Shown here piece after piece: positions 152-32,409 of a DNA stretch of 32,501 bases. Position numbers and translations under genes: made by a program. Source of the DNA: Fimbriimonadaceae bacterium (GTDB taxonomy: Bacteria > Armatimonadota > Fimbriimonadia > Fimbriimonadales > Fimbriimonadaceae); assembly GCA_019638775.1 (NCBI GenBank), contig JAHBTD010000009.1, positions 1 to 32,501 on the forward strand. Direction: 5' to 3'. Position 1 is the stretch's first letter. Each line of letters starts with the position of its first letter. Under the pieces are notes generated by a model. The model made no database searches, had not been told where the DNA came from, and saw only the letters and a program-made list of their open reading frames with translations.

Positions 152-169
152 CTGTAAGCCAGCTTACAG
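152..169. promoter_or_regulatory. CRP-type palindrome, site 1
   Basis: Perfect 8-bp inverted repeat CTGTAAGC-CA-GCTTACAG. Its 16-bp core (153-168) matches the palindrome that recurs upstream of other operons in this window. It lies about 150 bp before the merR-like gene and 27 bp after the long inverted repeat. Assignment to the Crp/Fnr protein encoded at 25874-26575 is inferred. Confidence 0.6.
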
Positions 170-9686: not shown

Positions 9687-9710
9687 GTGCGAGACTCTAC
9701 GAAATATCGT

Positions 9711-10464: not shown

Positions 10465-10527
10465 GCGGGGAAGGAATGCGTCGGTTCACGAGACTCTCGT
10501 CATCAATTTAGGAGAAAGGGTGCCATC

Positions 10528-11331
10528 ATGAAGATCAGCAGTCGATCGATCGTTGCGTCGCTTGCCATCGTGATTCTCACGTCTCCGCTCATCTCATCGG
10601 CAGGGGAGCAGGAGCAGAAACCGACGGTGTCGCATTATGCGGGTCCGCGAGAGGATGCGCCGATTCCCCGGCCTGGGTTACGACCCAAGAAGGGCCGGGT
10701 GGCGGTGGTCGTGACGGATCCGCAGAACGACTTTCTGAGCCCAACCGGCGTGGCCTGGGGTGTGGTCGGACAGAGCGTGCAGGAAAACCACACGGTGGAA
10801 CATCTCGAAGACCTGTTCAAGGTCGCCAAGGCCGCCGATGTGCCGGTCTTCGTCAGCCCGCACTATTACTATCCGCACGACCACCGGTGGACCTTCGGCG
10901 GCGCGCTCGAAGTGCTGATGCACAAGATCGGCATGTTCGACCGGAAAGCAGCGTTGACCCAGGAGGGGTTTGCGGGGTCCGGTGCCGATTGGCTCGACCG
11001 CTACAAACCCTATATCGAAGACGGCCGGACAGTCGTGACCAGCCCGCACAAGGTGTTCGGGCCCGAGTCGAACGATCTCATCCTGCAGCTGCGCAAGGCC
11101 GACATCAGCCAGGTGATCCTGGCCGGCATGTCTGCCAATCTCTGCACCGAGTCGCATCTGCGCGAGCTACTCGAACAGGGCTTCGAGGTGGTGGTGGTGA
11201 CGGATGCGACGGCGGCCGCCAAGCTGCCGGGATTCGACGGCTATGAAGCCGCCTTCGTGAATGTTCGCATGATGGCGAGCGACGTGTGGAGTACGGCGCA
11301 GGCGGTGAAGACGCTGGCCTCACTCAAGTAA
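10528..11331 (+). CDS. Exported isochorismatase-family cysteine hydrolase
   Basis: This 267-residue protein has the catalytic triad Asp64 (VVTDPQNDF), Lys175 (TSPHKVFGPE) and Cys206 (GMSANLCTESH) of isochorismatase-like hydrolases, the superfamily of nicotinamidase, N-carbamoylsarcosine amidase and related amidases. The SPHYYYPHDHRW segment, rich in His, follows the second strand and could bind metal or substrate. It begins with a signal peptide (MKISSRSIVASLAIVILTSPLISSA), so it should act in the periplasm. Most family members are cytosolic, so export is notable. It likely hydrolyses a small amide or carbamoyl compound. A substrate-binding protein is encoded in the same operon. Confidence 0.85.
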   Translation: MKISSRSIVASLAIVILTSPLISSAGEQEQKPTVSHYAGPREDAPIPRPGLRPKKGRVAVVVTDPQNDFLSPTGVAWGVVGQSVQENHTVEHLEDLFKVAKAADVPVFVSPHYYYPHDHRWTFGGALEVLMHKIGMFDRKAALTQEGFAGSGADWLDRYKPYIEDGRTVVTSPHKVFGPESNDLILQLRKADISQVILAGMSANLCTESHLRELLEQGFEVVVVTDATAAAKLPGFDGYEAAFVNVRMMASDVWSTAQAVKTLASLK

Positions 11332-11394
11332 TCCCTCGGACGTGGACCGTGCGATGCATCGATGACCGACAATCTGTGACAAGGAGGAATGACC

Positions 11395-11769
11395 GTGAAA
11401 ACTGCAATCGTTATCCTATCCGACCCGAAAGGCGGGGCAGAGGAAGCCTTGGGGCGAGTGTTCAATGCCCTCGCCTTGGCTGCCGAATCCAAGCAACAGG
11501 GCGACGAGGTGGCCGTAGTGTTCAATGGCCCGGGGACGCGATGGCCGGCTGAGCTGACCAAGCTGACGCATCCGGCCAACGGGCTGTATCAGTCGGTGCG
11601 CGATGTGGTGCAGGGCGCATCCTGTGCCTGTGCCGAGGTCTTCGGGGCAACGGACAGTGTGCGGTCCTGCGGCGTGAAGAGCGTGAACGATAACGCCTTA
11701 CCGGGCACGGCCGGCCTGTTGAGTCTCAGGCGGTACCTGGCCGACGGATGGCATGTGGTGGTGTTCTGA
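11395..11769 (+). CDS. DsrE-family protein
   Basis: This 124-residue DsrE-like protein starts (GTG) with MKTAIVILSDPKGGAEEALGR. GTG 11395 is preferred over ATG 11389 because AAGGAGG ends at 11387, giving proper spacing only for GTG. Cysteines are Cys77 and Cys79 (ASCACAEVFG) and Cys92 (RSCGV), the same region as Cys75/78/91 of the 2245-2601 paralogue but with a C-x-C in place of C-x-x-C. Likely a cytosolic thiol or persulfide carrier. It lies third in the sigma54 operon. Confidence 0.85.
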   Translation: MKTAIVILSDPKGGAEEALGRVFNALALAAESKQQGDEVAVVFNGPGTRWPAELTKLTHPANGLYQSVRDVVQGASCACAEVFGATDSVRSCGVKSVNDNALPGTAGLLSLRRYLADGWHVVVF

Positions 11770-11789
11770 GAGCGGGATGATGTGAATGA

Positions 11790-11819
11790 CGGCGTGCAAC
11801 GCCTGTGGGTTGCACGCCG
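11790..11819 (+). other. Intercistronic 11-bp perfect stem-loop
   Basis: CGGCGTGCAAC (11790-11800) pairs perfectly with GTTGCACGCCG (11809-11819) around an 8-nt loop. It lies between the DsrE stop (11769) and the RBS (GGAGG, 11827-11831) of the flavoprotein gene. It is not followed by a T-run, so an mRNA processing or stability element that changes output along the operon is more likely than a terminator. Confidence 0.6.
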
Positions 11820-11839
11820 GTCATACGGAGGACGGCACA

Positions 11840-12460
11840 ATGGCGATGAAATATTTGGACCTGGCGCTGACGGAGTCCGTGCGACGGGCACAGCAGCAGT
11901 ATTACGGCCATGCCGCGACGATCGCCGAGTCGCCTGAGCGTGATCCGCTCGGCGAGGCGGAGATGGAGTTCATCACGACCCGAGACAGTTTCTACCTGGG
12001 CACCGTGAGTGAGAGCGGATGGCCGTACCTTCAACATCGCGGCGGGTCCGCGGGATTCTTGCGTGTGCTGAGCCCATCCAGGCTGGCGTTTGCGGATTAT
12101 CGAGGCAATCGCCAACTGCTGAGCACGGGGAATCTCCTGGCGAACGATCGCGTGGCGCTGTTTCTGATGGATTACGCGAATCGGGCGCGTTTGAAGGTGT
12201 TCGGCCATGGCCGGATCGAAGATGCGCGATCCCAACCGGAACTCGTGGCGCAACTTGCCTCGCTGGACGTGCGCGCGAAGGTGGAACGGATTCTGTTCAT
12301 CGATGTGGTGTCCTACGACTGGAACTGCCCGAAGTACATCACGCCCCGCTATTCCATCGGCGAGGTGGAGGAGGTAGTTGGGCCGTTGAAATCCCGTATT
12401 GCCGAGCTGGAAGCACAGCTTCGATCGCTCCAGGGAGAGAAGCGCATCCTGTCGATCTGA
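11840..12460 (+). CDS. PPOX-class / pyridoxamine 5'-phosphate oxidase-family flavoprotein
   Basis: This 206-residue protein has a split-barrel flavin-binding fold. Typical parts are EMEFITTRDSFYLGTVSESGWPYLQHRGG (strands 1-3) and FADYRGNRQLLSTGNL (FMN phosphate loop), followed by RVALFLMDYANRARLKVFGHGRIED. A coiled-coil helix at the C-terminus (PLKSRIAELEAQLRSLQ) probably oligomerises. This subgroup binds FMN or F420 and reduces or oxidises small molecules; the substrate is unknown. ATG 11840 is preferred over ATG 11786 because GGAGGA is 8 nt upstream and the longer form would translate through the 11790-11819 hairpin. It is fourth in the sigma54 operon. Confidence 0.8.
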   Translation: MAMKYLDLALTESVRRAQQQYYGHAATIAESPERDPLGEAEMEFITTRDSFYLGTVSESGWPYLQHRGGSAGFLRVLSPSRLAFADYRGNRQLLSTGNLLANDRVALFLMDYANRARLKVFGHGRIEDARSQPELVAQLASLDVRAKVERILFIDVVSYDWNCPKYITPRYSIGEVEEVVGPLKSRIAELEAQLRSLQGEKRILSI

Positions 12461-12480
12461 ACGGAGAGGAGAGACCATTG

Positions 12481-13725
12481 ATGTCACACATATCGCGTCG
12501 ACACTTCCTGAAATTCGCCGTCGCAATAGGCGGCGCGGTCGCACTCGGAGGTCTGGACGGCTCGCCAGGGTTCTCCCGGTCGAGGCGGATCGCCCATGCC
12601 GCGGAACCGATCAAGATCGGCATCATCGATCCGCTGTCGGGCCCCTATAAGACGTCTTCGATCCACGACGTGCACGGCGCGACGGTCGCGGTGGATCGCT
12701 TCAATACAGCCGGCGGTGTACTGGGCCGTCCGGTGGTCCTTGTCGAGGCCGACGATGCATCCAAGGTGGACATCGGAGTACGGACGGCTCGGAAGTTGAT
12801 CATGGACGACCGTGTGGATGTGCTCATGGGCACCTTCAACGGAGACGTCGCAATGGCGATCGCGGAGGTGGCCAAGCGGGAGAACCGGTTGTTCATGGTG
12901 ACCGGCGCACATGTTCCCGAGTTAACGGGGGCCGCGTGCAACTCGCACACCTTCGTGTTCATGCCGACCGCCGACATGCTCGCAACAGCGGTGGCCCCGC
13001 ACCTGGTCAAGACCTATGGGACCAGGTGCTACATGGTCACGGCCGATACGGTGGACGGCGCTTCCGCACGTACCGCCATGACCGACGCACTCGTGGCCCA
13101 CGGGGCCGAGATCCTCGGCGATACTGTGGCGTCTTTCGGCACGACGGACTTTGTCCCGGCATTCACACGGGCGGTGCGAGCCAAGCCGACCTTCATCGTG
13201 CTCAACCTCTACGGCTGGGACCTCGTCCACGCGCTGAAAGCTTATGCCAAGCTGCAGTTGGCCGCAGCGCAGATCGGCGTGGGGGGCATGATCGGCGGCG
13301 AACAAATCGGCCGGCCGCTGGGCTATGCGGATCACGCCGGAATCTGGGGCCTGATCTGGGACCCGAAGGTCAAGTCCGAGAGCTCGCGACGGTTCATTCA
13401 AGGCGTGATCGACAAATACCACCACACACCGACCTCGCGGTGCTATCACGGTTACGCCGCCATGACGCAAATCCTGGAGGCGATGCAACGGGCAGGAACG
13501 ACCGACACACAGGCGCTCATCAAGACGTTGGAGGGGCATGCCTTCGACGGCCTGAAGGAAGGGCGCTCCTATTTCCGTGCGTCGGATCACCTGCATGTGC
13601 AAGACGTGTTGGTAGGGAAAGCCTACGGGAAGGAATTGGGATTGGGCCACTACCAGCTGCTGGCCACGGTAGGGGGAGAGGCGGTTGCGAGCGTGCCCGA
13701 CCGGTCGGGTTGTGGGTTGACCTGA
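12481..13725 (+). CDS. Tat-exported ABC substrate-binding protein, LivK/UrtA-like
   Basis: This 414-residue periplasmic binding protein of type 1 (Leu/Ile/Val, amide and urea class) begins with a twin-arginine signal, SRRHFLKFAVAIGGAVALGG, cleaved near AHA-AEP. The mature start IKIGIIDPLSGPYKTSSIHDVHGATVAVDRFN and ARKLIMDDRVDVLMGTFNGDVAMAIAEVAKR are typical of the family. Tat export implies folding in the cytoplasm. No permease or ATPase genes follow, so it may work with a transporter encoded elsewhere or serve as a periplasmic sensor or scavenger. It follows the flavoprotein gene by 20 bp in the sigma54 operon. Together with the exported hydrolase it suggests a small amide-like ligand. Confidence 0.85.
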   Translation: MSHISRRHFLKFAVAIGGAVALGGLDGSPGFSRSRRIAHAAEPIKIGIIDPLSGPYKTSSIHDVHGATVAVDRFNTAGGVLGRPVVLVEADDASKVDIGVRTARKLIMDDRVDVLMGTFNGDVAMAIAEVAKRENRLFMVTGAHVPELTGAACNSHTFVFMPTADMLATAVAPHLVKTYGTRCYMVTADTVDGASARTAMTDALVAHGAEILGDTVASFGTTDFVPAFTRAVRAKPTFIVLNLYGWDLVHALKAYAKLQLAAAQIGVGGMIGGEQIGRPLGYADHAGIWGLIWDPKVKSESSRRFIQGVIDKYHHTPTSRCYHGYAAMTQILEAMQRAGTTDTQALIKTLEGHAFDGLKEGRSYFRASDHLHVQDVLVGKAYGKELGLGHYQLLATVGGEAVASVPDRSGCGLT

Positions 13726-13769
13726 ACTTGCCGGTTGCACGGTATCGGTATCACACAGGAGGATCGAAC

Positions 13770-14180
13770 ATGAACAGGTTGGCGTTGCGACAGGGTCGAT
13801 GGCGAAATCCCCTGAGGTTCTTCAGCGAGTTGCTGGAGCAGCCGGCCTGGGTTGCGGGCTGGGTCTTAGTCCTCATGGCGATCAATCTGGCCGGCCTCGC
13901 ATTCTGGAGTGAGCTCTTGGCTCGGGTCATTGTGGCGATCTTCCTACTCTCAGCCATGCTGATGATGGGGTTGTATAGCGTATTCGGTTTTGAACGGATT
14001 CTTGGATTGGGGCACGTGTTCTGGATTCCCTTGTTAGTCATGCTGTTGATGCACCTGCCGCAGGCCGCCGGTGCATTCGCCGGCTACCTCATCGTGCTGG
14101 CTCTGTGTCTCGGGATTTCATTGCTGTTCGATATTCGTGACCTGTGGATCTACGTATCACAAAAACGGACGCGGCAGTGA
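13770..14180 (+). CDS. Small four-helix membrane protein (paralogue of 1756-2133)
   Basis: This 136-residue protein has about four membrane segments. It shares RNPLRFFSELLEQPAWV, AGLAFW, SAMLMMGLYSVFGFERILGLGH and WIPLL with the copy at 1756-2133. The RBS AGGAGG is at 13757-13762. The sequence is not one I recognise. It ends the sigma54 operon, 44 nt after the binding-protein gene, so it may anchor a complex or be the membrane partner of one of the redox proteins. The conserved Glu-Gln-Pro near the first helix and the GLGH loop are the residues to look at. Confidence 0.8.
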   Translation: MNRLALRQGRWRNPLRFFSELLEQPAWVAGWVLVLMAINLAGLAFWSELLARVIVAIFLLSAMLMMGLYSVFGFERILGLGHVFWIPLLVMLLMHLPQAAGAFAGYLIVLALCLGISLLFDIRDLWIYVSQKRTRQ

Positions 14181-14602: not shown

Positions 14603-14620
14603 CTGTAAGCTGGCTCACAG
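14603..14620. promoter_or_regulatory. CRP-type palindrome, site 2
   Basis: CTGTAAGCTGGCTCACAG: seven of eight arm positions are symmetrical, and the core TGTAAGCTGGCTCACA follows the window-wide motif. It lies about 120 bp before the 41-residue peptide gene. Confidence 0.65.
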
Positions 14621-14740: not shown

Positions 14741-14866
14741 ATGTCGATGATGTGCAGCCTGCAGGGATGTACCCGGAAGCACGGCATGTGCGGACACGAG
14801 AAGATGATGTTCGCCGTGATGATCATGCTGATGATCGGCGGCGTGGCCTATTGGTTTATGGGATGA
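14741..14866 (+). CDS. 41-residue Cys/Met-rich single-span membrane peptide
   Basis: The RBS AAAGGAGG precedes ATG 14741. The N-terminal half, MSMMCSLQGCTRKHGMCGHE, holds three Cys, two His and four Met. The second half, KMMFAVMIMLMIGGVAYWFMG, is one membrane span. I do not recognise it. The composition suggests binding of a soft metal such as Cu(I) at the membrane surface. It lies just before the bufferin operon and shares the same class of upstream regulatory sites, so it may be part of the same copper or redox response. It might instead be a small regulatory or assembly subunit. Confidence 0.65.
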   Translation: MSMMCSLQGCTRKHGMCGHEKMMFAVMIMLMIGGVAYWFMG

Positions 14867-14879
14867 GCAGATGCACGAC

Positions 14880-14895
14880 TGTAAGCTGCCTCACA
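14880..14895. promoter_or_regulatory. CRP-type palindrome, site 3
   Basis: TGTAAGCTGCCTCACA lies between the 41-residue peptide gene and bufA, about 200 bp before the bufA start, and matches the recurring motif. Confidence 0.6.
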
Positions 14896-15022
14896 GCAAT
14901 CGCGCCGGCTGCGCGATACGATTCACCGCAATAATTCGGCATTCGCGTGGGCACATGGGAAGCCGCCGCATGGTCCACAGGCCGGAGAAAGGGGTTGCAC
15001 GCATGATCGAGTGCTGAGTCTG

Positions 15023-15036
15023 TCGATGTAGATCAA
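15023..15036. promoter_or_regulatory. FNR-like box upstream of bufA
   Basis: TCGATGTAGATCAA matches TTGAT-N4-ATCAA at 9 of 10 informative positions and is close to the well-known FNR/ANR/DNR form. It is 55 bp before the bufA start, a position suited to activation under low oxygen or nitric oxide. Confidence 0.5.
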
Positions 15037-15091
15037 TATCCAATAACCGAAGACGTTCCCGATGGTATTGCAGTCCACAAAGGAGATTCAT

Positions 15092-15427
15092 ATGAACGCT
15101 CAGATGAAAAAACACGCGATGGTTCATTCTGCACTGTTGGTGGCCCTGAGTGTTGCCGGTGCCCAAGTGGCAAACGCCGCCCCCAAGATGGCCGAAATGC
15201 CCAGCGGCTGGGAAGCCTGCGGCGGGGTCGCGAAAGCCGGCATGAACGATTGCGCGGTCAAGACCAGTCTCCATTCCTGTGTCGGGATGTCCAAGACCGA
15301 CAATGAAGCCGATTCGTATGTGTTTTTGCCGAAAGGTCTCTGCACCAAGATCGCCAAGGGAACGGTGTTGGCCATCACGAAAGATGACTTGGCCAAGATG
15401 AAAGAGATGATGATGAAGAAGATGTAG
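15092..15427 (+). CDS. bufA: Bufferin precursor (BufA, DUF2282 type)
   Basis: This 111-residue precursor is of the DUF2282 type. A signal peptide (MNAQMKKHAMVHSALLVALSVAGAQVANA) precedes a mature part with four cysteines, Cys43 (WEACGGVAKAG), Cys54 (MNDC), Cys63 (HSC) and Cys84 (PKGLC). This is the usual bufferin pattern, in which cysteines of the core are turned into copper-binding thiooxazoles by BufB/BufC before export. Unlike the family members I know, it continues past the last Cys with a Met-rich tail (KMKEMMMKKM), possibly an extra Cu(I) site. The RBS AAAGGAG precedes ATG 15092. bufB, bufC and a doxX gene follow at once. A CRP-type palindrome and an FNR-like box lie upstream. Confidence 0.9.
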   Translation: MNAQMKKHAMVHSALLVALSVAGAQVANAAPKMAEMPSGWEACGGVAKAGMNDCAVKTSLHSCVGMSKTDNEADSYVFLPKGLCTKIAKGTVLAITKDDLAKMKEMMMKKM

Positions 15428-15438
15428 GACGGACGCCG

Positions 15439-16284
15439 ATGTCTGGTTCGCCTTCCGCCCCGATCCCGGCTCAGGCCGGGATCGGGCTACGGTCCCATCA
15501 TTTTCGCGAGATTCTGGAAGCCCCGCCGCCGGTGGCCTGGATGGAAACCCATCCGGAGAATTATTTCGGCGAAGGCGGCGCGCCGCTCCGCATCCTTGAG
15601 CGGATCAGATCTCTGTACCCCTTGAGTTTTCACGGGGTCGGCCTGTCGCTGGGCTCCATCGATCAGCTCGACCGTGACCATCTCCGAAAGCTCAAGAGCC
15701 TCATCGATCGCTTCGACCCGGCGTTTGTGTCGGAGCATCTGTCCTGGAGCTCCGTCGGCGGTCGTTTCCTCAATGAGTTGTTGCCGCTTCCCTACACGGA
15801 GGAAAGCCTGGAGCACATTTGCGCCAGGATCGACGACGTGCAGACCGTCTTGCAGCGGCCGCTCCTGATCGAAAATGTCACTCGGTACCTAACATGGGGC
15901 GGCTCCACGATCCCGGAAGGGGCGTTTATGGCTGAGGCGGTCCGACGGACCGGATGCGGAATTCTGTTGGATCTGAACAACGTGTATGTGAATGCCGTCA
16001 ATTTTCACCTCGACCCATTCGAGTTTCTGGACGAGATTCCGTCCGAGGCGGTTGGGGAAATCCATCTGGCCGGGTTCGATCGCTTCGGGAGATGGGTCAT
16101 CGACACCCATGGTGAGGCGGTTTCTCAGGAAGTCTGGGGCCTGTATCGGTGGGCGATCCATCGTTTCGGGTCACGGCCGACGCTGATTGAATGGGATACC
16201 AATATGCCGCCGCTGTCCGTCCTGGTCGATCAGGCGAAGCAGGCGGACGCGATTTTAGGAGGGTGTTGTGTGGCGACTCCGTGA
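15439..16284 (+). CDS. bufB: BufB-type multinuclear iron enzyme (MNIO, DUF692)
   Basis: This 281-residue DUF692 protein is the oxidative maturase of bufferins, a TIM-barrel enzyme with two or three irons that rearranges cysteine side chains in the precursor. Visible metal-site motifs are METHPENYF, SFHGVGLSLGS, VSEHLSW, LIENVTRYL, LLDLNNVYVNA, GEIHLAGF, IDTHGE and IEWDTNMP, so the active site appears complete. The first 16 codons contain a very stable hairpin (15459-15486), likely to lower its translation relative to bufA. The start ATG 15439 lies 11 nt after the bufA stop. The end overlaps bufC by 17 nt. Confidence 0.92.
   Translation: MSGSPSAPIPAQAGIGLRSHHFREILEAPPPVAWMETHPENYFGEGGAPLRILERIRSLYPLSFHGVGLSLGSIDQLDRDHLRKLKSLIDRFDPAFVSEHLSWSSVGGRFLNELLPLPYTEESLEHICARIDDVQTVLQRPLLIENVTRYLTWGGSTIPEGAFMAEAVRRTGCGILLDLNNVYVNAVNFHLDPFEFLDEIPSEAVGEIHLAGFDRFGRWVIDTHGEAVSQEVWGLYRWAIHRFGSRPTLIEWDTNMPPLSVLVDQAKQADAILGGCCVATP
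15459..15486 (+). promoter_or_regulatory. 12-bp GC-rich hairpin at the 5' end of bufB
   Basis: CCCGATCCCGGC (15459-15470) and GCCGGGATCGGG (15475-15486) form a perfect 12-bp stem closed by the loop TCAG. It starts 20 nt after the bufB start codon. No T-run follows, so attenuation of translation or protection of the bufA transcript end is more likely than intrinsic termination. Confidence 0.75.
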
Positions 16285-17053
16285 GATGCAGGAAGCCTTT
16301 GCCGAGGGGATGACGGCGGGGAACCATCAGGCGGTAGCAGACGCCCTCGCGTCCGACGGCTCGCCCCTGCGCAGCGTCGCGCTCTATCGCCGCCTGATTC
16401 GTACCAACTACACCCAGGTGTTGCGCGTCACCTATCCGCTGCTCGCCAAGCTGGTTGGGGAACGATTCTTTGCCGTGTGTGCGCGCGGATACCACGCGCG
16501 GTATCCATCGACCAGCGGCGATCTGTTCGCATACGGACGAGCCTTCCCGCAGTGGCTGCTCGAATTGGACGGGCCTCGTCTGCTGGTTCAACTGGCTCGA
16601 TTGGAGTGGGCGTGCCATGAAGTGCACCAGGCGGACGACGCGCGCGGTCCCGTCGCGGAGCGATCCGAGGTCGAGGCGTGGGCCGATCCGTCATCCGTGC
16701 GGTTCCGTATGAATCCGGCGGCGCGGCTGCTTGCGTGTGCCGTGCCGATCTATCATGTGTGGCATGCGCTCCAGGTCGAGATTGCCGGGGGCGGGTGCGA
16801 CGAGGGCGCCGAGCCGTCGCCGGTTCCGGAGGAAACGGGCCTGCTCGTAGCTCGGGCCGCTGGAACCATTCAGGTGACCGGTCTCTCCCCAGAACAGTTT
16901 CTCCTGTTGCACGCTATGCGTGACGGGAAGACCGTGGCCCAGGTCGAGCGCATGGCCGCCGAGCTGATCCCCGCCGACCAAGGAGCATCTCTGTTGGCCA
17001 TGCTCCTGGACGAACCCACGCGCTCGGCCTTCTCTCTTGAGGTGACCCCATGA
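16268..17053 (+). CDS. bufC: BufC-type partner protein (DUF2063)
   Basis: This 261-residue protein matches the DUF2063 partner of MNIO enzymes: the N-terminal MQEAFAEGM helix, RLIRTNYTQVLRVTYPLLAKLVGERFF, and DLFAYGRAFPQWLLELDGPRLLVQLARLEWACHEVH. A C-terminal winged-helix-like region probably binds the precursor leader and presents it to BufB. The GTG at 16268 is chosen because AGGAGG lies 5 nt upstream inside bufB. The overlap with bufB (17 nt) and with doxX (ATGA) indicates coupled translation. Confidence 0.9.
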   Translation: MWRLREMQEAFAEGMTAGNHQAVADALASDGSPLRSVALYRRLIRTNYTQVLRVTYPLLAKLVGERFFAVCARGYHARYPSTSGDLFAYGRAFPQWLLELDGPRLLVQLARLEWACHEVHQADDARGPVAERSEVEAWADPSSVRFRMNPAARLLACAVPIYHVWHALQVEIAGGGCDEGAEPSPVPEETGLLVARAAGTIQVTGLSPEQFLLLHAMRDGKTVAQVERMAAELIPADQGASLLAMLLDEPTRSAFSLEVTP

Positions 17054-17583
17054 CACAGACGACAGGATCGTTGGCGATCGCATTCGATCGGGCGAGTCAG
17101 GTCTACGGACGAATCGTCGGTATCCTGGAGGCGTTGTTGCCGCTTTTCGACCTGTCCGTGCGTCTGTATTTAGCGCACATCTTCTGGAAAGGCGGTATGG
17201 TCAAACTCTCCAGTTGGATGTCGACCGTCATGCTGTTTACAATGGTCTACGATGTGCCGGTGCTTCCGCCGGAAATTGCGGCCTACTTGGCGACGACCGT
17301 CGAATTGGGTGGATCGTTTCTCCTGGCGATCGGGCTGGCCGGTCGTTGGGCAGCGCTCTCGCTCTTCGGGCTCAACATCGTGGCGGTGCTCTCCTACGGG
17401 CAACTGTCGGAAGCCGCGATCCAGGAGGCGTTCTATTGGGGGATTCTCTTTCTGTATTTCGTTCTGCATGGGCCTGGTCTGATCTCCGTGGATGCCTTGT
17501 TGCGGCGGCTCATCCGACGGAAGCAGGAATCGGGCACTGTCGACTCGGCCTCGACGACGACGCGGGCGTTTCACGGCGCCTGA
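17050..17583 (+). CDS. DoxX-family membrane protein
   Basis: This 177-residue protein has about four membrane segments (PLFDLSVRLYLAHIFWKGGMVKL is the typical DoxX first helix and loop; then TTVELGGSFLLAIGLAGRWAAL, LNIVAVLSY and AFYWGILFLYFVLHGPGLISVD). DoxX-family proteins commonly accompany bufferin genes and may link the quinone pool or thiol redox to peptide maturation or export. The start overlaps the bufC stop (ATGA). The next gene, a SoxC-like molybdoenzyme, begins 21 nt after its stop (about 63 nt if its alternative ATG 17647 is used), so this gene bridges the two modules. Confidence 0.88.
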   Translation: MTQTTGSLAIAFDRASQVYGRIVGILEALLPLFDLSVRLYLAHIFWKGGMVKLSSWMSTVMLFTMVYDVPVLPPEIAAYLATTVELGGSFLLAIGLAGRWAALSLFGLNIVAVLSYGQLSEAAIQEAFYWGILFLYFVLHGPGLISVDALLRRLIRRKQESGTVDSASTTTRAFHGA

Positions 17584-17604
17584 TAGGGAGGCAGGGTATG
17601 AACG

Positions 17605-18909
17605 ATGTATGTCGGCGGTGTAGCGCTGTCTCTCGACAGGGGGCGTATGCGTGTGCCCGATGAAGAGACGCCGGTCTCCTCGGACGAGGAACCCCCCGAT
17701 GGCTGGTACGTCGATCGCCGCGCCTGGCTGATCGGCGCCGCTTCGGTGCTTGGCGCAACGGCGGCAGAGCTGCTGTCACCCGCTCTTCCGACTGCCGGCG
17801 AATCGGCGCCTGAAGATCCCACTCGCGTACCCGGCGCGGCGCCGAGTGCCTACGGAGTGCGTTCCCGCTTCGAGCGAGCGCAACGGGTGACGACGGCGAC
17901 GCATTCGCTCACACCCTACCAATTGTTGCACGGCATCGTTACCCCCAGTTCGCTGCACTTCGAGCGCCACCATAACGGCGTACCGGCGATCGATCCACAT
18001 CGTCATCGGTTGTTGGTCCATGGATTGGTGGATCGGCCTCTGATGTTGTCCATGGACGAGCTGACAAGGTTTCCCTCCCTCACGCGCACGCTGTGCATCG
18101 AATGTTCCGGCAATACGGGCAAAGAATGGAAAGATCCGGTTGGAAGGACCGTCCAGGAGACGCATGGGCTCATGAGCACGAGCGAATGGACGGGCGTGCC
18201 GCTCGCGACGGTCTTGGCGGAGTGCGGCATCAGACCGGATGCGATGTGGGTGCTGGCCGAGGGCGGCGATGCCGCGGCCATGACACGGAGCTTGCCGCTC
18301 AAGGAGGTGTTGAACGAGGCGGTGCTCTGTTACGCGCACAACGGCGAGGCGCTCAGGCCGGAGCAAGGTTATCCCTTGCGACTGGTGATTCCCGGCTGGG
18401 AGGGCAACACCTGCATCAAATGGCTGCGGCGGCTCAAGCTCGGCGCGGCGCCGTTCATGACACGTGAAGAAACAGCCCGCTATACCGACTTGATGCCGGA
18501 CGGAAAAGCCAGGCAGTTCACGTTTGTGATGGAGGCCAAGTCGGTGATCACGAGTCCGTCAGGCGGACAACGCATCGAGCCGGGTTTCGTCGAGATTCGT
18601 GGGTTGGCTTGGAGTGGGCGCGGCAAGATCACCACGGTCGAGGTGAGCATGGACGGTGGTCGCATGTGGAAGCAGGCACAGCTTCAGGAGCCGGTGCTGT
18701 CGAAGTGCCACACTCGCTTTCGGTTCGGCTGGCGGTGGAAGGGTGAGGAGGTGCTGCTCCAGAGCCGCTGCGCCGACGAGACCGGATACGTTCAACCGAC
18801 CAGGGCCGCGCTCGTCGCCGCGCGCGGTGTGCACTCGTCGTACCACTACAACGCCATACAGACGTGGAAGATCGCTCGGGACGGGCTGGTGACGAATGTA
18901 CACCTATAA
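17605..18909 (+). CDS. SoxC/sulfite dehydrogenase-like molybdopterin subunit
   Basis: This protein of about 434 residues has the sulfite-oxidase fold. The molybdenum ligand Cys167 lies in TLCIECSGNTGKEW. DPVGRTVQETHGLMSTSEWTGVPLATVL and YPLRLVIPGWEGNTCIKWLRRLKLG match SoxC, as does the C-terminal dimerisation domain (ITSPSGGQRIEPGFVEIRGLAWSG). The N-terminus has a twin-arginine signal (DRRAWLIGAASVLGA) after a variable segment, so the protein is periplasmic. The start is unsettled: ATG 17605 has a poor RBS, ATG 17647 is alternative, and the best-spaced RBS (GGAGG, 17587-17591) serves an out-of-frame ATG 17598. The cytochrome gene overlaps its end by 14 nt. Likely oxidises sulfite or a sulfur intermediate, passing electrons to that cytochrome. 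Confidence 0.85.
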   Translation: MYVGGVALSLDRGRMRVPDEETPVSSDEEPPDGWYVDRRAWLIGAASVLGATAAELLSPALPTAGESAPEDPTRVPGAAPSAYGVRSRFERAQRVTTATHSLTPYQLLHGIVTPSSLHFERHHNGVPAIDPHRHRLLVHGLVDRPLMLSMDELTRFPSLTRTLCIECSGNTGKEWKDPVGRTVQETHGLMSTSEWTGVPLATVLAECGIRPDAMWVLAEGGDAAAMTRSLPLKEVLNEAVLCYAHNGEALRPEQGYPLRLVIPGWEGNTCIKWLRRLKLGAAPFMTREETARYTDLMPDGKARQFTFVMEAKSVITSPSGGQRIEPGFVEIRGLAWSGRGKITTVEVSMDGGRMWKQAQLQEPVLSKCHTRFRFGWRWKGEEVLLQSRCADETGYVQPTRAALVAARGVHSSYHYNAIQTWKIARDGLVTNVHL

Positions 18910-19447
18910 CGCCGCATTGGTCGTCGTGGGCATCGCGCTGTCCGGCAGTGGGGTCGGCCTGGCCGAGGAGTCGATCGGGTATGGGGTTGGAAGATCGGCG
19001 ACGGTGGCCGAGGTCCACGCTTGGGACATCGATATCACTCCGACCGGTGCGGGGTTGCCGCCTGGCCGGGGAACCGTGATACAGGGCGCAACAGTCTATG
19101 CCGCCAAGTGCGCGTCCTGCCATGGCTCGACCGGGATCGAAGGGCCGCAGAATCGTTTAGTCGGCGGGCATGGCTCACTCGCCACAGACCAGCCGGTCAA
19201 GACCATCGGCAGTTTCTGGCCCTACGCGACCACGCTGTACGACTACATTCGTCGCGCCATGCCGTGGAACGCGCCGCAATCGTTGACGCCGGACGAGGTC
19301 TATGCGGTCGTCGCCTGGCTGCTCCATCAAAACGGCATCGTCCCCACGGATGCGGTGATGGATGCCGGGACCCTTCCCGCCGTTCGGATGCCCAATCGCG
19401 AGGGATTTGTCGCCGATCCGCGGCCGGATGTCGGGTCGCACGAATGA
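18896..19447 (+). CDS. SoxD/SorB-like monohaem cytochrome c
   Basis: This 183-residue protein has a signal peptide (NAALVVVGIALSGSGVGLA) and one haem motif C72-ASC75-H76. Downstream, LTPDEVYAVVAWLLHQNGIVP and MPNREGFVADPRPDV are typical of SoxD-like cytochromes. A Met in RRAMPWNAPQ is a plausible second axial ligand. Paracoccus SoxD carries two haems, so this is a shorter version with only the C-terminal haem domain. The start overlaps the molybdoenzyme stop by 14 nt, and the two should form a heterodimer in the periplasm. It is the last gene of the bufferin operon as I read it. Confidence 0.85.
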   Translation: MYTYNAALVVVGIALSGSGVGLAEESIGYGVGRSATVAEVHAWDIDITPTGAGLPPGRGTVIQGATVYAAKCASCHGSTGIEGPQNRLVGGHGSLATDQPVKTIGSFWPYATTLYDYIRRAMPWNAPQSLTPDEVYAVVAWLLHQNGIVPTDAVMDAGTLPAVRMPNREGFVADPRPDVGSHE

Positions 19448-19486: not shown

Positions 19487-19513
19487 GCTTCTTGAACAGG
19501 ATGTCTCCGTAAT
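19487..19513. repeat. 27-bp direct repeat, left copy
   Basis: Identical over 27 bp to 20622-20648. Read on the minus strand it encodes YGDILFKK, the C-terminus of the DUF3047 protein at 20614-21378, but no other part of that gene is present here. The neighbouring sequence differs on both sides of the 27 bp. The two copies bracket about 1.1 kb that contains the toxin-antitoxin pair. Confidence 0.85.
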
Positions 19514-19538
19514 TTCGTCTCTTGGGGGCGGGTTTTGC

Positions 19539-19562
19539 AATCTCACATTGCTCTGTGAGATT
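19539..19562. repeat. Perfect 9-bp hairpin, diverged copy of 6160-6184
   Basis: AATCTCACA (19539-19547) and TGTGAGATT (19554-19562) pair perfectly around TTGCTC. The half-sites point outward (TCACA then TGTGA), the reverse of a CRP operator, so I do not count this as one. It follows the SoxD-like gene by about 90 bp and lies just inside the left 27-bp repeat. No T-run follows. Confidence 0.6.
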
Positions 19563-19735
19563 CAGGCGGTTTGGCCCGTATGGTCGCGCAATAAGGATCT
19601 TGAGCTGTGCCAGCTCAATGGCGCCAATACCCAAGCGACCCTGCTCTTCTTTCCTGGAGCACGCTCCCATATCTCTTCTCGCATCTTGACACGCATCTTG
19701 ACGTATATGGTTATCGTATACTACCGTAGAAGCCG

Positions 19736-20056
19736 ATGGAGCAGTTTGCAAACCTGGAAAGTTTCGAGTGGGACAAGGGCAATCTCACCAAGAACTGGGA
19801 GAAACACCGCGTCACTCCGTGGGAATGCGAGCAAATATTTTTCAACATCCCATTGGTCGTCGCGGATGATGCCGCTCACTCCTCAGGGGAGCCTCGATAC
19901 TACGTCCTCGGGCACACCGATGCAGGTCGGCGACTCTTCCTGGTGTTTACCGTGCGTAAGCGGCAGATTCGCGTCATTTCCGCGAGAGACATGAGTCCGA
20001 AGGAACGGAGGGCCTACCGTGAAGAAACTCAAAAAAAGACCGACGTTCGAGAGTGA
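19736..20056 (+). CDS. brnT: BrnT-family toxin
   Basis: This 106-residue RelE-fold ribonuclease toxin of a type II system contains FEWDKGNLTKNWEKHRVTPWECEQIFFN, then GHTDAGRRLFLVFTVRKRQIRVISARDMSPKERRAYREE. Both blocks are diagnostic for BrnT. The catalytic Arg/His set of the RVISARDMSPKERRAY end is intact. AT-rich promoter-like sequence with two CATCTTGAC direct repeats (about 19683-19702) and an inverted GTATA/TATAC pair (19703-19721) precedes it and may be the operator. It overlaps the antitoxin gene by 38 nt and lies inside the 27-bp repeats. Confidence 0.88.
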   Translation: MEQFANLESFEWDKGNLTKNWEKHRVTPWECEQIFFNIPLVVADDAAHSSGEPRYYVLGHTDAGRRLFLVFTVRKRQIRVISARDMSPKERRAYREETQKKTDVRE

Positions 20057-20309
20057 GAACCACGAAGCGGCGTTTTGGGCGTCGCACGATTCCACGGACT
20101 ACATCGACTACTCCAAGAGCCAGCGCGTGCTGTTCCCGCGCCTCAAGCCATCGACGGAGACTATTTCGCTTCGCCTGCCTAAGTCACTCCTAGAGCAACT
20201 GAAGACGCTCGCTAACAAGCGTGACGTACCCTACCAAACCCTACTCAAGCTGTTCGTACTCGAGCGTGTGGAGTTGGAACTTCACCGAAAGACCGCGAAG
20301 GCCTCCTAG
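20019..20309 (+). CDS. BrnA/CopG-type antitoxin
   Basis: This 96-residue protein (GTG start, GGAACGGAGG upstream) begins KKLKKRPTFESENHEAAFWASHDSTDYIDYSKS. It ends with a ribbon-helix-helix domain: TISLRLPKSLLEQLKTLANKRDVPYQTLLKLFVLERV. The acidic, flexible N-terminal part is of the toxin-binding CopG-antitoxin type; the C-terminal part binds the operator. It overlaps the toxin gene, so the usual toxin-first order of brnT/brnA systems is kept. It should neutralise the toxin and repress the operon. Confidence 0.88.
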   Translation: MKKLKKRPTFESENHEAAFWASHDSTDYIDYSKSQRVLFPRLKPSTETISLRLPKSLLEQLKTLANKRDVPYQTLLKLFVLERVELELHRKTAKAS

Positions 20310-20613
20310 CATTCACGATGCACCCGGCATCGCAACCATGAGCGGGGTGAAGGTCGTCTTCGGCAGGTCAGTGACGTAGAGGCGGCGGCCTGGACCATCA
20401 CCTCCGCATCGAATTCGCCGGGCGTGTCTGGATCACGGCGAGGGCGCCCTCGATCCCGAGCGTACCCTCGCCAACGATGTTCCCGAGTTCGCCGAGTCGG
20501 CTTTCGGCCTCGCCACTGTTCGGCGATTGATGCGCCAGAGAGGTCAAATCTTGTCTTGTCCGGAACCGCAGCAACGCCAAGAGGGACTGGAGGGCAACCC
20601 GACGGGATAGCTC
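20310..20613. other. Unassigned 300-bp stretch inside the repeat-bounded segment
   Basis: No convincing gene. Short open frames exist on the minus strand (for instance 20398-20580, containing RLGELGNIVGEGTLGIEGALAVIQTRP), but none has an RBS or a family I recognise. It might be a decayed gene carried in with the toxin-antitoxin pair. Confidence 0.3.
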
Positions 20614-21378
20614 TCACGGGCGCTTCTTGAACAGGATGTCTCCGTAATAGGCCTCCGCCGACTCGCCGGTATTGTCGGTATCGGTCATGATGGCCACGCC
20701 GGAAATCGGCGGTGGCTCTTCGCCGAACGCTCGCTTATAGTCTTCATAGACATTGCGTTCTTCCGTGACCCAGGTATTGAGCTTGGTCGTCCCGCTTTCT
20801 ACGACGATCATGGAGACCTGATCCGTAAAAGGGTTGGGAACGGTCGTGCCGATCGGTGCGCGGCTCTCCCAGATATAGTTGATGGCGCCGAGCGGGGGGT
20901 AGCGGCCATAAATCAACTTGGCCGTCTCGTATTTCGCCTTGCCGAAGAGTCCGACTTTCGCGCTGTCGTATTCAAAGGTGACATAGATCCGGGCGGGATA
21001 ATCGTCGCCCGCCTTTTTGGCGACATCGCCCGCCTTGAGCACGTTGGAGACTTTCCACTGCCATCGAATGATCGGATAGTCCTTGGGGTCGATGCGAATT
21101 TCTCGCGTCATGCCTGAGGAGGAGGCCTGGCTGGACGCTTTGACGACGACCTGTTCCCCTTCCTTCACAAGACCGTAGGTGGTGTGCTGCGGGATCTTGG
21201 GGAACGTGAGCGGCTTCCAGCCGTCGGGCCAGGGGCCTCCTGGCGCGGCGGCCGAGAAGGCGCCGATCGTCTGGGTGTCCGGCGAGTTGGCGTCCAGTCG
21301 GTCCGGATCTCCCAGAATCATTCCGACCAACAGGAACGACGAGAGGCCGACGATCAGGGAAGACGTTGCTGGTGGCAT
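20614..21378 (-). CDS. DUF3047 protein, exported
   Basis: This 254-residue protein has a signal peptide or anchor (MPPATSSLIVGLSSFLLVGMILG). The DUF3047 pattern follows: PDGWKPLTFPKIPQHTTYGLVKEGEQVVVKASSQASSSGMTREI, YPIIRWQWKVSNVLKAGD, GDDYPARIYVTFEYD, NYIWESRAPIGTTVPNP and GVAIMTDTDNTGESAEAYYGDI. The fold is a jelly-roll-like periplasmic domain of unknown function. ATG 21378 has AAAGGA 8 nt upstream. It is third in an operon behind the TVP38 and flavoprotein genes (gap 61 bp). Its last 9 codons are part of the 27-bp repeat copied at 19487-19513. Confidence 0.85.
   Translation of the reverse strand: MPPATSSLIVGLSSFLLVGMILGDPDRLDANSPDTQTIGAFSAAAPGGPWPDGWKPLTFPKIPQHTTYGLVKEGEQVVVKASSQASSSGMTREIRIDPKDYPIIRWQWKVSNVLKAGDVAKKAGDDYPARIYVTFEYDSAKVGLFGKAKYETAKLIYGRYPPLGAINYIWESRAPIGTTVPNPFTDQVSMIVVESGTTKLNTWVTEERNVYEDYKRAFGEEPPPISGVAIMTDTDNTGESAEAYYGDILFKKRP
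20622..20648. repeat. 27-bp direct repeat, right copy
   Basis: Perfect copy of 19487-19513. It coincides with the 3' end of the DUF3047 coding sequence (YYGDILFKKR before the stop), so that gene is intact while the left copy is an isolated fragment. This is the signature left when an element integrates into, and restores, the 3' end of a gene. Confidence 0.85.
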
Positions 21379-21439
21379 CGCCTGTGTCCTTTGAAATCCA
21401 CGAGGTGCATAAGTTCTCCTGTTCCCGGGCAGGGCAACC

Positions 21440-23026
21440 CTACCGCCGCATCCATGCAAACAACTTGATCAAGAACTCTCTGGTCCTCTGCGTGAAGTGG
21501 GCTTTTCGCCAGAGATTGATCACCTTTTTGTTGACTTCGGCCTGTGTCGGATAGGGATGGATGGTACCCGCGATCGCCTTGGCCCCTGCTCCCGTTTTCA
21601 TCGCGACCGAGAACTCGCTGATCATCTCCCCGGCATGGGCCGCCACGATGGTCGCCCCCAGAATCTTGTCGGTTCCCTTTTGAATGTGGACCCGAGCAAA
21701 GCCTTCGTCCTCTCCGTCCAGAATCGCTCGATCGACCTCGTCCAACGTGTACGTGTAGGTTTCCACTTCAATGCCCTTCTCCTGAGCCTCCTTCTCATAC
21801 ATGCCGACATGCGCCACTTCCGGTTCGGTGAAGGTACACCAGGGCATGACCAAAGAATCGACACTGGCGTAGCCCAGACCGAAGGGATGCGGGAACAAGG
21901 CATTCTGGATGACGATTTGTGCCATGGCATCGGCGGCATGCGTAAACTTATAGCGCGAGCAGACATCGCCTGCTGCATAGATCGAGGGGTTGGTGGTCTG
22001 CAGTCTGGCGTTCACCGTGATTCCGTGTTTGTCGTATTCGACACCGGCCGTCTCCAATCCGATCCCGTCCACATTCGGCGTCCGCCCGGTACCGACAAGA
22101 ATATCGTCGACGGTCACATCGTAGTGCCGGCCATGCGAATCGACGATCAACCGTTTCCCGCCGTCGGACTTCTCCACCCTGAGATCCTTTCCGCAGCAGA
22201 GCAGGGTCACGCCGTCGCGGATCATCTGTTGCTCGACGATCTCGGCCGCGTCGCGGTCCTCGTTCGGCATGATGCCGTGCATGGCTTCGATGAGGGAGAC
22301 CTGACTGCCGAAGCGGGCGAACGATTGTGCCAGTTCACAGCCGATGGGGCCGGCGCCGATCACCCCGAGACGTCGAGGCAGCTCCGTCAATGAAAACACG
22401 GTTTCGTTGGTGAGATACCCGGTCTCCTGCAGTCCCGGAATCGGAGGTGCCGATGCCCGGGCACCGGTGCAGACGGCGGCTTTCACGAACGTCAGGGTGC
22501 GATGGCCCGACGGTCCTTCCACCTGGACGGTCGTGGGTCCGGTGAATCGCCCGCTGCCGATATAGACGTCGACGCCCAGTTTGGCGTAGCGCTGAACGGA
22601 GTCGTTCCGGCTGATGCGCGCCCGCAGTTTTCGCATGCGCGCCATGACGGCGCCGAAGTCATAGGTCACGCCGGGCGGCACATGGAGGCCAAAGTCCGTG
22701 GCCCGCCGGAGATCGGCCCAGGCTCTGGCTGCCCGGATCACGCCCTTCGACGGGACGCAGCCGACATTGAGACAGTCGCCGCCCATCAGATGCTGTTCAA
22801 TCAATGCCACCTTGGCTCCCAGGCTTGCGGCCACGACTGCGGTGATCAATCCGGCCGTCCCCGCTCCGATGACGACGATGTTGTAGCGCCCTGTCGGTTC
22901 GGGATTCACCCAATCGGACGGATGCACATTCGCGACCAGTTGCTGGTTGTACTCGTCGTGCGGAAGCATGAGAGGCTGCTGGTGCTCAGTCTTTCCGGCA
23001 ATGCGTGGAGGCGGCTCTGTCGTCAT
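21440..23026 (-). CDS. Mercuric-reductase-like flavoprotein disulfide reductase
   Basis: This 528-residue class I pyridine nucleotide-disulfide oxidoreductase has an FAD-binding VVIGAGTAGL (51-60) and a redox disulfide in GGDC85-LNVGC90-VPSK. Further matches are NAD(P)-binding RLGVIGAGPIGCELAQ, second FAD motif SIYAAGDVCSR, and C-terminal interface IHPYPTQAEVNKK in place of the His-Pro-Thr of glutathione reductase. It lacks both the NmerA metallochaperone domain and the C-terminal Cys-Cys pair of MerA, so mercury reduction is unlikely. Proteins like this are often encoded with, or fused to, TVP38 domains, as here (45-bp gap). It may reduce a quinone, thiol or metal. An N-terminal extension of about 45 residues precedes the core. 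Confidence 0.85.
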   Translation of the reverse strand: MTTEPPPRIAGKTEHQQPLMLPHDEYNQQLVANVHPSDWVNPEPTGRYNIVVIGAGTAGLITAVVAASLGAKVALIEQHLMGGDCLNVGCVPSKGVIRAARAWADLRRATDFGLHVPPGVTYDFGAVMARMRKLRARISRNDSVQRYAKLGVDVYIGSGRFTGPTTVQVEGPSGHRTLTFVKAAVCTGARASAPPIPGLQETGYLTNETVFSLTELPRRLGVIGAGPIGCELAQSFARFGSQVSLIEAMHGIMPNEDRDAAEIVEQQMIRDGVTLLCCGKDLRVEKSDGGKRLIVDSHGRHYDVTVDDILVGTGRTPNVDGIGLETAGVEYDKHGITVNARLQTTNPSIYAAGDVCSRYKFTHAADAMAQIVIQNALFPHPFGLGYASVDSLVMPWCTFTEPEVAHVGMYEKEAQEKGIEVETYTYTLDEVDRAILDGEDEGFARVHIQKGTDKILGATIVAAHAGEMISEFSVAMKTGAGAKAIAGTIHPYPTQAEVNKKVINLWRKAHFTQRTREFLIKLFAWMRR

Positions 23027-23071
23027 AACGTGGCATCCTTCGGTGTAGGGAGGGAAACGATATACGAGTCC

Positions 23072-23845
23072 TCATGCCGAGGCGGTGGTGTACTTCTTAT
23101 ACACCACCGGCACGAGGGCGAGAAGCCCCAGAAAGACAAAGGCTCCGATCACATTTGGCGAGGCGATGTCTGTCAGCGAGTGTATGGTGCCCAATTGGCG
23201 TCCTGCATAGGCGTAGACGAACGAACCGGGAACGATGCCGAGCGCCGTGGCCCCGATATACGTGCCGGCGCTCACGCGGGTCAGTCCGGATACGAGGTTG
23301 ACCACGAAGAACGGAAACAGGGGAATCAAGCGAAGGGTCAAGAGATAGCTGAACGCATTCTTGGTAAAGCCTTCTTGCAGGGGCTTCAGCGCCTTTCCGA
23401 ATTTCTGCTCCACCGTATCCTGCAACACATACCGGGCGGTCAAAAACGCCAGGGTTGCGCCGGTCGTCGCCCCGACATTCACGAACAGGGTGCCCAGGAC
23501 GGCTCCGAAGAGGAACCCGCCGGCGAGCGTGAGAATGACCGCGCCCGGAAGCGACAGGCCGGTGACGATCGTATACGCGGCGATAAAGAGGCCGACCGTG
23601 GCGACATAATTCGTATCCGCGAAGGCCTGGAGCTTGTCTCGATGGTTCTGTAGGGCGCTCAACGAAAGGAATTGCCCCAGATCGAAATACACGAAACCTG
23701 CGATGGCCAGCCCGATGACGAGGGCGATGAGTATCTTGCCTGAAACCGGCGCCTTCGTCGAGGTGCCGGTCGATGTGCCCGGATGACACGGGAGAATCTC
23801 ATCTTGTGCGTTATCCTGGTGTCTGTCTGTGCAGGGCGTTTCCAT
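23072..23845 (-). CDS. TVP38/TMEM64 (VTT-domain) membrane protein
   Basis: This 257-residue integral membrane protein has the VTT/DedA-like domain. A first helix (ILIALVIGLAIAGFVYF) is followed by the re-entrant motif GLSLPGAVILTLAGGFLFGAVLGTL, then FLTARYVLQD and AFSYLLTLRLIPLFPFFVVNLVSGLTRVS, and a last helix ANVIGAFVFLGLLALVPVVY-like. The first 40 residues are polar. VTT proteins move or flip lipids and support membrane homeostasis. The ATG at 23845 (METPC) is chosen for AAGGGA upstream; a longer in-frame ORF reaches 23998. It leads an operon with the MerA-like and DUF3047 genes. A CRP-type palindrome is 138 bp upstream. Confidence 0.88.
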   Translation of the reverse strand: METPCTDRHQDNAQDEILPCHPGTSTGTSTKAPVSGKILIALVIGLAIAGFVYFDLGQFLSLSALQNHRDKLQAFADTNYVATVGLFIAAYTIVTGLSLPGAVILTLAGGFLFGAVLGTLFVNVGATTGATLAFLTARYVLQDTVEQKFGKALKPLQEGFTKNAFSYLLTLRLIPLFPFFVVNLVSGLTRVSAGTYIGATALGIVPGSFVYAYAGRQLGTIHSLTDIASPNVIGAFVFLGLLALVPVVYKKYTTASA

Positions 23846-23983
23846 AGACGGGATTCCCTTCGTGTGACTCAGCGATGCCGATACCGGGGTCTGTGGCCCA
23901 TCAGGCTCTCCGGAACAATCACGCTGTCTGAAAGATGCGTGTCTCACCATGGCTTCACGATACCCTGCTTCTTGTTCTGATTC

Positions 23984-25642: not shown

Positions 25643-25658
25643 TGTGAGCTGCCTTACA
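25643..25658. promoter_or_regulatory. CRP-type palindrome, site 5
   Basis: TGTGAGCTGCCTTACA, one of the best matches. It lies between the leftward unknown membrane-anchored gene (start 25569) and the rightward Crp/Fnr gene (start 25874), so it could control either, including autoregulation. Confidence 0.7.
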
Positions 25659-25873: not shown

Positions 25874-26575
25874 ATGGACAGTCCACCCACTCCTCAGAAC
25901 AAACTCTGGTACCTCAAGCACATTCGATTGTTCGACGGGATTTCTCCATCGGAAATGCAGGAGATGGAGAAGATTACCAGGATGGAAGAGGTCAAGAAGC
26001 GACAACCGTTCTACCTTCCCGGCGATCCAAGCTCCAACGTGTATCTCCTCAAACGAGGGCGCGTCAAACTGGCCAACACCGCCGCAAGCGGCAAGGAAGT
26101 GACGTTCGACATCCTGGAGCCTGGAGAGGTCTTTGGAGAGTTAGAGGTCTTGGAAGGTTTGCCTCGTGAAACCGCCGCCGAAGCGTTGGATGATGCCATG
26201 ATTTGCGTCATTCGCCGCGAAGACTTCGATCGGTACCTGGCCATGCATCCGAAGATCACCGTGAAGCTGACGAAACTGATCGGCTTGCGGTTGAGGCGCA
26301 TTCAAAGCCGTATCGAGGACTTGGTCTTCCGGGATGTCCCGGCGCGATTGGCCCATTTGCTGCTCGAACTCAGCAAAAGCGACGGCGCGCAAGAGCCGCG
26401 TGGGATTCGGATCAAGGCGAAATTGACGCATCAGGAAATGGCCAACCTCATCGGCTGTAGCCGGGAGACGGTGAGTGCCACGCTGGGACAGTTCCGCGAT
26501 GAAGGGCTTCTTCAACTCGACGGCCGCACCCTGACGATTCTAGACCCCAAAGGGTTGTCCAGACTGCTTGGTTGA
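25874..26575 (+). CDS. Crp/Fnr-family transcriptional regulator
   Basis: This 233-residue protein has a cyclic-nucleotide-type beta-roll at about 20-130 (LKRGRVKLANTAASGKEVTFDILEPGEVFGELEVLEG), a long dimerisation helix (about 126-165), and a winged HTH at 184-213 (LTHQEMANLIGCSRETVSATLGQFRDEGLL). No N-terminal Fe-S cysteine cluster of the FNR type is present. In the recognition helix R197-E198-T199-V200 matches the CRP residues that read TGTGA, while the next contact Arg is replaced by Ala202. The recurrent TGTGAGC palindromes in this window are the obvious targets. The RBS is GGAG, 8 nt before the ATG. The nearest palindrome is about 215 bp upstream. Effector unknown: cAMP, a redox or other small ligand. 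Confidence 0.9.
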   Translation: MDSPPTPQNKLWYLKHIRLFDGISPSEMQEMEKITRMEEVKKRQPFYLPGDPSSNVYLLKRGRVKLANTAASGKEVTFDILEPGEVFGELEVLEGLPRETAAEALDDAMICVIRREDFDRYLAMHPKITVKLTKLIGLRLRRIQSRIEDLVFRDVPARLAHLLLELSKSDGAQEPRGIRIKAKLTHQEMANLIGCSRETVSATLGQFRDEGLLQLDGRTLTILDPKGLSRLLG

Positions 26576-32160: not shown

Positions 32161-32409
32161 CTAAAGGGGGCGCCCACGGCGATCTGTGAGGGGGCTTACA
32201 GTTTCCAGACGCCCGGAGAACGTCTCGAACGCGCCTATCAGAAGCAGCGCGAGGATCTTTCCTCGGAGTTGCTGAAGACCATCGAAGAATGTTCCCCGGC
32301 GTTCTTCGAGCGTCTGGTCATCGACGTACGCGTAAAGATGGGCGATGGAGGGTCTCGCAAAGAAGCGGGGAGAGCCATCGGTCGCAGTGGTGACGAAGGC
32401 GTCGCCCAT
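32161..32409 (-). CDS. Uncertain 82-residue ORF
   Basis: An open frame with a hydrophobic helix (GKILALLLIGAFETF) and no recognisable motif. No good RBS precedes the ATG, and the CRP-type palindrome at 32185-32200 falls inside its last codons. It may be a real small protein directly upstream of the operon or simply leader sequence. Nothing else is visible in 32410-32501. Confidence 0.3.
   Translation of the reverse strand: MGDAFVTTATDGSPRFFARPSIAHLYAYVDDQTLEERRGTFFDGLQQLRGKILALLLIGAFETFSGRLETVSPLTDRRGRPL
32185..32200. promoter_or_regulatory. CRP-type palindrome, site 8
   Basis: TGTGAGGGGGCTTACA, close to the consensus, 34 bp before the thioredoxin-fold gene and reading leftward into the four-gene operon. 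Confidence 0.7.

Follow-up and report, generated by a model that had tools for sequence, protein, structure and literature searches.

Does a bufferin operon that runs directly into genes for a sulfur-oxidizing enzyme handle copper and sulfur together, or do the two sets of genes simply lie side by side? The question is raised by a 32,501-base stretch of DNA, the complete contig C9 of bin G000 and hereafter the window, in which a bufferin operon is followed by genes for a molybdoenzyme and a c-type cytochrome. An earlier note on this DNA had suggested either joint handling of copper and sulfur or a supply of electrons to the peptide chemistry through DoxX.

Gene content of the operon

We read seven open reading frames directly and then identified them with Pfam and NCBIfam (Table 1). 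All six genes named in the earlier note (bufA, bufB, bufC, doxX, the molybdoenzyme gene and the cytochrome gene) are present on the plus strand in the order claimed, and their description as overlapping or near-contiguous is borne out by the measured junctions: bufA and bufB are 11 nt apart, and the bufB/bufC, bufC/doxX and soxC/cytochrome pairs overlap by 17, 4 and 14 nt, respectively. The proposed range of 14741-19447 holds for these genes and fails at its start: position 14741 opens a separate 41-aa ORF with its own upstream site, and bufA begins at 15092. This small ORF has no match in Pfam or NCBIfam, starts with a Cys/His-rich segment (CSLQGCTRKHGMCGHEK), and is found ahead of bufA in at least 12 of the 34 Nitrospira buf loci described below; its product is possibly a metal-binding membrane peptide.

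Table 1. Features of the window (positions count from its first base)
Feature	Position	Strand	Evidence or context
Crp-type palindrome	152..169		before MerR-family gene 321-758
Palindrome CTGTAAGCTGGCTCACAG	14603..14620		upstream of 41-aa ORF
Small ORF, 41 aa	14741..14866	+	Cys/His-rich N-terminus and one membrane helix, by inspection
Palindrome CTGTAAGCTGCCTCACAG	14879..14896		~210 nt ahead of bufA; hardly varies among relatives
bufA, bufferin-1 precursor, DUF2282	15092..15427	+	PF10048, 67 bits
bufB, MNIO bufferin maturase	15439..16284	+	NF050167 MNIO_BufB, 365 bits, cut-off 310
bufC, DUF2063 partner protein	16268..17053	+	PF09836 over cut-off
doxX, DoxX/HvfX-like membrane protein	17050..17583	+	PF07681 over cut-off
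soxC, molybdopterin sulfite/sulfane dehydrogenase subunit	17647..18909	+	TIGR04555, 559.5 bits, cut-off 420; PF00174 and PF03404
SoxD-like monoheme c-type cytochrome	18896..19447	+	one CxxCH in 183 aa; PF13442
Crp-type palindrome	25643..25658		between crp gene and divergent gene 24220-25614
Crp/Fnr-family regulator, proposed operon controller	25874..26575	+	Crp domain families
Crp-type palindrome	32184..32201		before minus-strand gene 31271-31900

BufA has four conserved cysteines and, by inspection, a signal peptide; the bufC and doxX products score below the cut-offs of the HvfC and HvfX equivalog models. With a DUF2282 four-Cys precursor, an MNIO, a DUF2063 protein and DoxX in the same order, the window resembles the bufferin-1 clusters of Cupriavidus and Legionella (gig operon) and Caulobacter (sigF operon), but it carries at its 3' end a SoxC-cytochrome pair that is not described for Buf1 clusters. 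In a survey of MNIO clusters, the extra conserved genes of bufferin clusters occurred in extremely low proportions, oxidored_molyb was found only beside some Buf_EGKCG clusters, and the words sulfite, Sox and Nitrospira are absent from the main text (PMC12452194). Our literature search on Nitrospira bufferins (DUF692/DUF2282) returned no paper describing a soxC-linked operon. About 100 nt before bufA, at 14987-14994, a Shine-Dalgarno-like GAAAGGRG is conserved within an otherwise diverged leader. We rejected it as the start signal of a leader ORF, as the four-codon ORF of the window (MIEC) is not conserved in most relatives; the element is possibly an RNA regulatory element.

The soxC reading frame is open from 17605, and alignment with relatives favors the ATG at 17647 as its most likely start over 17605, where it had been placed earlier. 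By inspection, SoxC carries a twin-arginine signal (DRRAWLIGAAS). The label "SoxCD-like" stands by sequence: SoxCD of Paracoccus pantotrophus (2XTS) is the closest solved structure for both subunits (SoxC versus 2xts_A, E 6.5e-107), and TIGR04555 is exceeded. The pair is nevertheless an orphan. Unlike the P. pantotrophus genes, those of the window are not accompanied by a sox cluster, and the cytochrome, whose match to SoxD (2XTS chain B) covers just the N-terminal domain, lacks a second heme domain and does not qualify as a diheme SoxD. Moreover, the SoxY carrier (PF13501) is absent from 28 of 29 Nitrospira genomes, G292 being the only one with it, in a search that recovered both of two positive controls; SoxY is missing from 14 of the 15 Nitrospira genomes with linked genes. 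Because SoxY is missing, a complete Sox cycle or a carrier-bound reaction is unlikely. SorAB and SorT likewise are periplasmic molybdenum enzymes, often with a c-type cytochrome, but the window protein falls far below both cut-offs (145.6 bits versus 600 for the SorA equivalog NF052245, and 122.9 versus 570 for SorT). Another orphan SoxC-cytochrome pair, 50% identical, lies on a Pseudomonas plasmid beside genes for TauD-type dioxygenases, a sulfurtransferase and a sulfate permease.

The gap between doxX and soxC measures 63 nt in the window and 85-108 nt in most relatives. In keeping with the direct run into the molybdoenzyme gene that the earlier note had described, inspection of this gap revealed no terminator-like or sigma-70-like site, and thus no separate terminator or promoter before soxC, nor any palindrome or other motif, in the window or in the relatives checked. 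We infer that bufABC, doxX, soxC and the cytochrome gene would be co-transcribed. Most loci with this linkage have soxC within about 110 nt after doxX; two have 1.2-1.8 kb of other genes in between, and one (L064) has no doxX. In L062, doxX and soxC are separated by same-strand genes that inspection suggests are thioredoxin-like and old-yellow-enzyme-like (3535-5185).

Recurrence, history and origin of the linkage

A SoxC scan of genome contigs from 84,980 species gave 80 loci. In nine Nitrospira loci, buf genes lie directly upstream of the soxC-cytochrome pair; the pair stands without buf in about 60 other loci, nearly all from Nitrospirota or Nitrospinota, and 14 loci from Pseudomonadota and Bacteroidota are also without buf. 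Searching for BufB in 49 genomes of the SoxC scan and in 345 phylum members, we obtained 34 Nitrospira buf loci (the window among them), three of which are cut by contig ends. Among the 31 informative loci, the soxC-cytochrome pair is found downstream of buf in 17 (window counted; two of these have identical SoxC) and is absent from 14. This neighborhood survey confirms that the pairing recurs in other genomes. In the class of Methyloversatilis (369 genomes), 51 genomes have SoxC and 41 of these also a BufB-family protein, but by coordinates the two are more than 10 kb apart in all 41, with a smallest distance of about 17 kb. N. moscoviensis, too, has both genes without linkage. Adjacency alone is no proof of a functional tie, because the flanking genes (DUF3047, MerA-like, TVP38 and crp) likewise keep their order.

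All 17 linked proteins group in a single clade (support 100/100) of a tree built from 87 SoxC proteins, and linkage requires one change, compared with 15.7 in shuffles. Members of this clade are 73-97% identical to the window protein, and we found none of them away from buf. With 17 of 17 linked SoxC in one clade, a single joining is probable. In the BufB tree, loci that have soxC are interspersed with loci that lack it, with 10 changes, at least three of them forced by well-supported branches. Judged from the two trees, buf and soxC were probably joined once, with several later losses. The 14-nt soxC/cytochrome overlap occurs in 15 of the 17 linked loci and is the commonest arrangement in unlinked loci too. 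Key residues are the same in linked and unlinked SoxC, in a comparison that included Nitrospira without buf, and a candidate active-site shift in linked SoxC came down to minor substitutions, with nothing clear among them.

The window itself probably comes from Nitrospira. Its GC content is 0.60, versus about 0.55 in the large contigs of the bin, and its tetranucleotide use differs from theirs (correlation 0.34-0.39); correlations with several Nitrospira loci are 0.62-0.65, and with others 0.37-0.56. A contig named Nitrospira defluvii isolate NOB1 matches the operon region at 93-96% identity, and SoxC over the cut-off was found in none of 290 other genomes of the bin's assigned phylum, a genome set distinct from the phylum set that holds N. 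moscoviensis. The simplest reading is a mis-binned Nitrospira contig in a genome of another phylum; horizontal transfer is a possible alternative source. A contig native to the assembled genome is less likely, given the Nitrospira-like composition and synteny, the GC mismatch and a phylum otherwise without SoxC over the cut-off. Three small contigs of the same bin (C6, C8 and C12) are also Nitrospira-like in composition.

A conserved Nitrospira island flanks the operon at 8100-14180 and 20614-31900, with Crp-type sites in places. Its genes, several of them named by inspection, encode a sigma-54 activator, AhpD-like, isochorismatase-like and PNP oxidase-like proteins, a Tat-exported ABC substrate protein, and DUF3047, MerA-like flavoprotein, TVP38-like and DUF3179-like proteins. 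A stretch of about 1.1 kb (region 19487-20648), bracketed by perfect 27-base direct repeats (GCTTCTTGAACAGGATGTCTCCGTAAT, at 19487 and 20622), holds a toxin-antitoxin pair that looks BrnT/BrnA-like on inspection (19736-20309). L058, a close relative, has a single copy of the repeat and lacks the BrnT/BrnA-like insert.

A Crp-type palindrome and its candidate regulator

Most Nitrospira buf loci have a Crp-type palindrome, TGTRAGSNNSCTYACA, ahead of bufA, usually at a distance of about 210 nt; two (L202 and L206) lack it. The 34 buf loci (564 kb) contain 62 matches, where base shuffles predict 0.2; 75 other loci (1.11 Mb), unlinked soxC loci included, contain none. Candidate FNR-like boxes near 14660 and 15023, noticed by eye, were rejected, as they are not conserved in relatives. 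Palindromes of the TGTRA-N6-TYACA type, which fits the CRP-type site TGTGA-N6-TCACA, stand upstream of both the operon and the gene for a Crp/Fnr-family regulator. This crp gene is present in 20 of the 34 buf loci, several of the rest being short or not reaching that far, and in none of the 75 other loci. The recognition helix of its product, CSRETV, is identical to that of E. coli CRP. Co-occurrence and helix similarity together suggest that this Crp protein binds the palindromes. The palindrome upstream of bufA in most loci, and upstream of a conserved crp gene, is new here.

Bufferin-1 clusters elsewhere differ in this respect: the window has no recognized ECF sigma factor or NrsF genes beside the operon, and has Crp-type sites instead. 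The Caulobacter sigF regulon, in which bufferin operons and a molybdopterin oxidoreductase share one regulator, sets a precedent for regulating bufferin genes jointly with a molybdenum enzyme, as proposed here, but there the oxidoreductase is of the YedY/MsrP type, lies at another locus and is controlled by an ECF sigma factor (PMC3511200). Recruitment beside buf would have brought SoxCD into a regulon from which unlinked SoxCD seems to be absent. The joined genes thus seem to have a gene switch of their own, a hint that copper and sulfite are handled together.

What the linkage may do

We propose that the locus is a bufferin-1 operon with a once-recruited orphan SoxC-SoxD pair, placed under one nearby Crp-type regulator for the combined detoxification of copper and sulfite, and consider this proposal evenly balanced between right and wrong. 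BufB and BufC would modify the precursor BufA in the cytoplasm, and BufA would then be exported to trap copper in the periplasm, as is known for the family. Tat-exported SoxC and its one-heme cytochrome would convert sulfite to sulfate, with the cytochrome c pool receiving the electrons. Combined detoxification is the most likely benefit of joint expression, since removing copper and sulfite together may protect the envelope. Sulfite undergoes copper-catalyzed radical oxidation and itself converts Cu(II) into Cu(I), the more toxic form, which makes joint removal reasonable. Sulfite oxidation is the likely activity of SoxCD here and our best guess: SoxCD is able to oxidize sulfite (PMC5336275), Nitrospira has been proposed to possess a sulfite dehydrogenase in the periplasm (PMC7078480), and the orphan pair on the Pseudomonas plasmid has sulfonate and sulfate genes around it. 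That copper and sulfur are handled jointly, as first suggested in the earlier note, is plausible.

It is possible, if somewhat unlikely, that the genes are neutral neighbors, SoxCD being carried along in a Crp-controlled stress island and serving a separate need under the same inducing signal. The conserved flanking genes of the island fit such passive association, as do the repeated presence and absence of soxC on the BufB tree (10 changes) and the varied redox genes that end bufferin operons elsewhere: plasmid operons end in MsrQ (Methylomagnum) or an FAD oxidoreductase (Rhizobium). However, linked-clade SoxC was not found away from buf despite its wide divergence, and soxC follows doxX closely in most linked loci. 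In the Methylomagnum plasmid locus (L241, 3675-6777), bufABC-doxX is followed by msrQ, and the operon lies near genes for a sigma-54 regulator and a carboxymuconolactone decarboxylase, resembling parts of the Nitrospira island.

We regard it as quite improbable that SoxCD, as a sulfite dehydrogenase, yields energy for lithotrophic growth and has no tie to copper. Such a role has been suggested for comammox Nitrospira (PMC7078480), and SoxC-cytochrome pairs without buf are widespread in Nitrospirota, but the unlinked pairs have no palindrome, and lithotrophy leaves both the recruitment into the buf operon and the regulatory site unexplained.

Very little credence goes to a bufferin that replaces SoxY, in which the Cys-rich exported peptide would carry a persulfide for oxidation by SoxCD and so handle both copper and sulfane sulfur. 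The canonical SoxCD substrate is carrier-bound sulfur, and SoxY is missing where the same operon encodes an exported Cys peptide; yet SoxC shows no clear active-site difference from that of Nitrospira without buf, and BufA is alike in SoxC-linked and unlinked loci and has no SoxY-like GGCGG arm. Electron supply from SoxCD to bufferin maturation through DoxX, the other suggestion made earlier, is hardly credible: gene order speaks for it, but BufB works in the cytoplasm on the precursor, according to the literature, whereas SoxC is Tat-exported to the periplasm, many bufferin operons lack SoxCD (about half of those in Nitrospira, 14 loci), and the linked locus L064 has no doxX.

If the link between copper trapping and sulfite oxidation is functional, bufferin systems would act jointly with periplasmic sulfite oxidation, a Crp-type controller would be named where ECF sigma factors are usual, and a first clue would emerge to the placement of DoxX and other redox genes behind bufferin genes. 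As Nitrospira has copper enzymes and lives amid copper and reduced sulfur, for example in treatment plants, the operon could bear on the tolerance of these nitrifiers to both.
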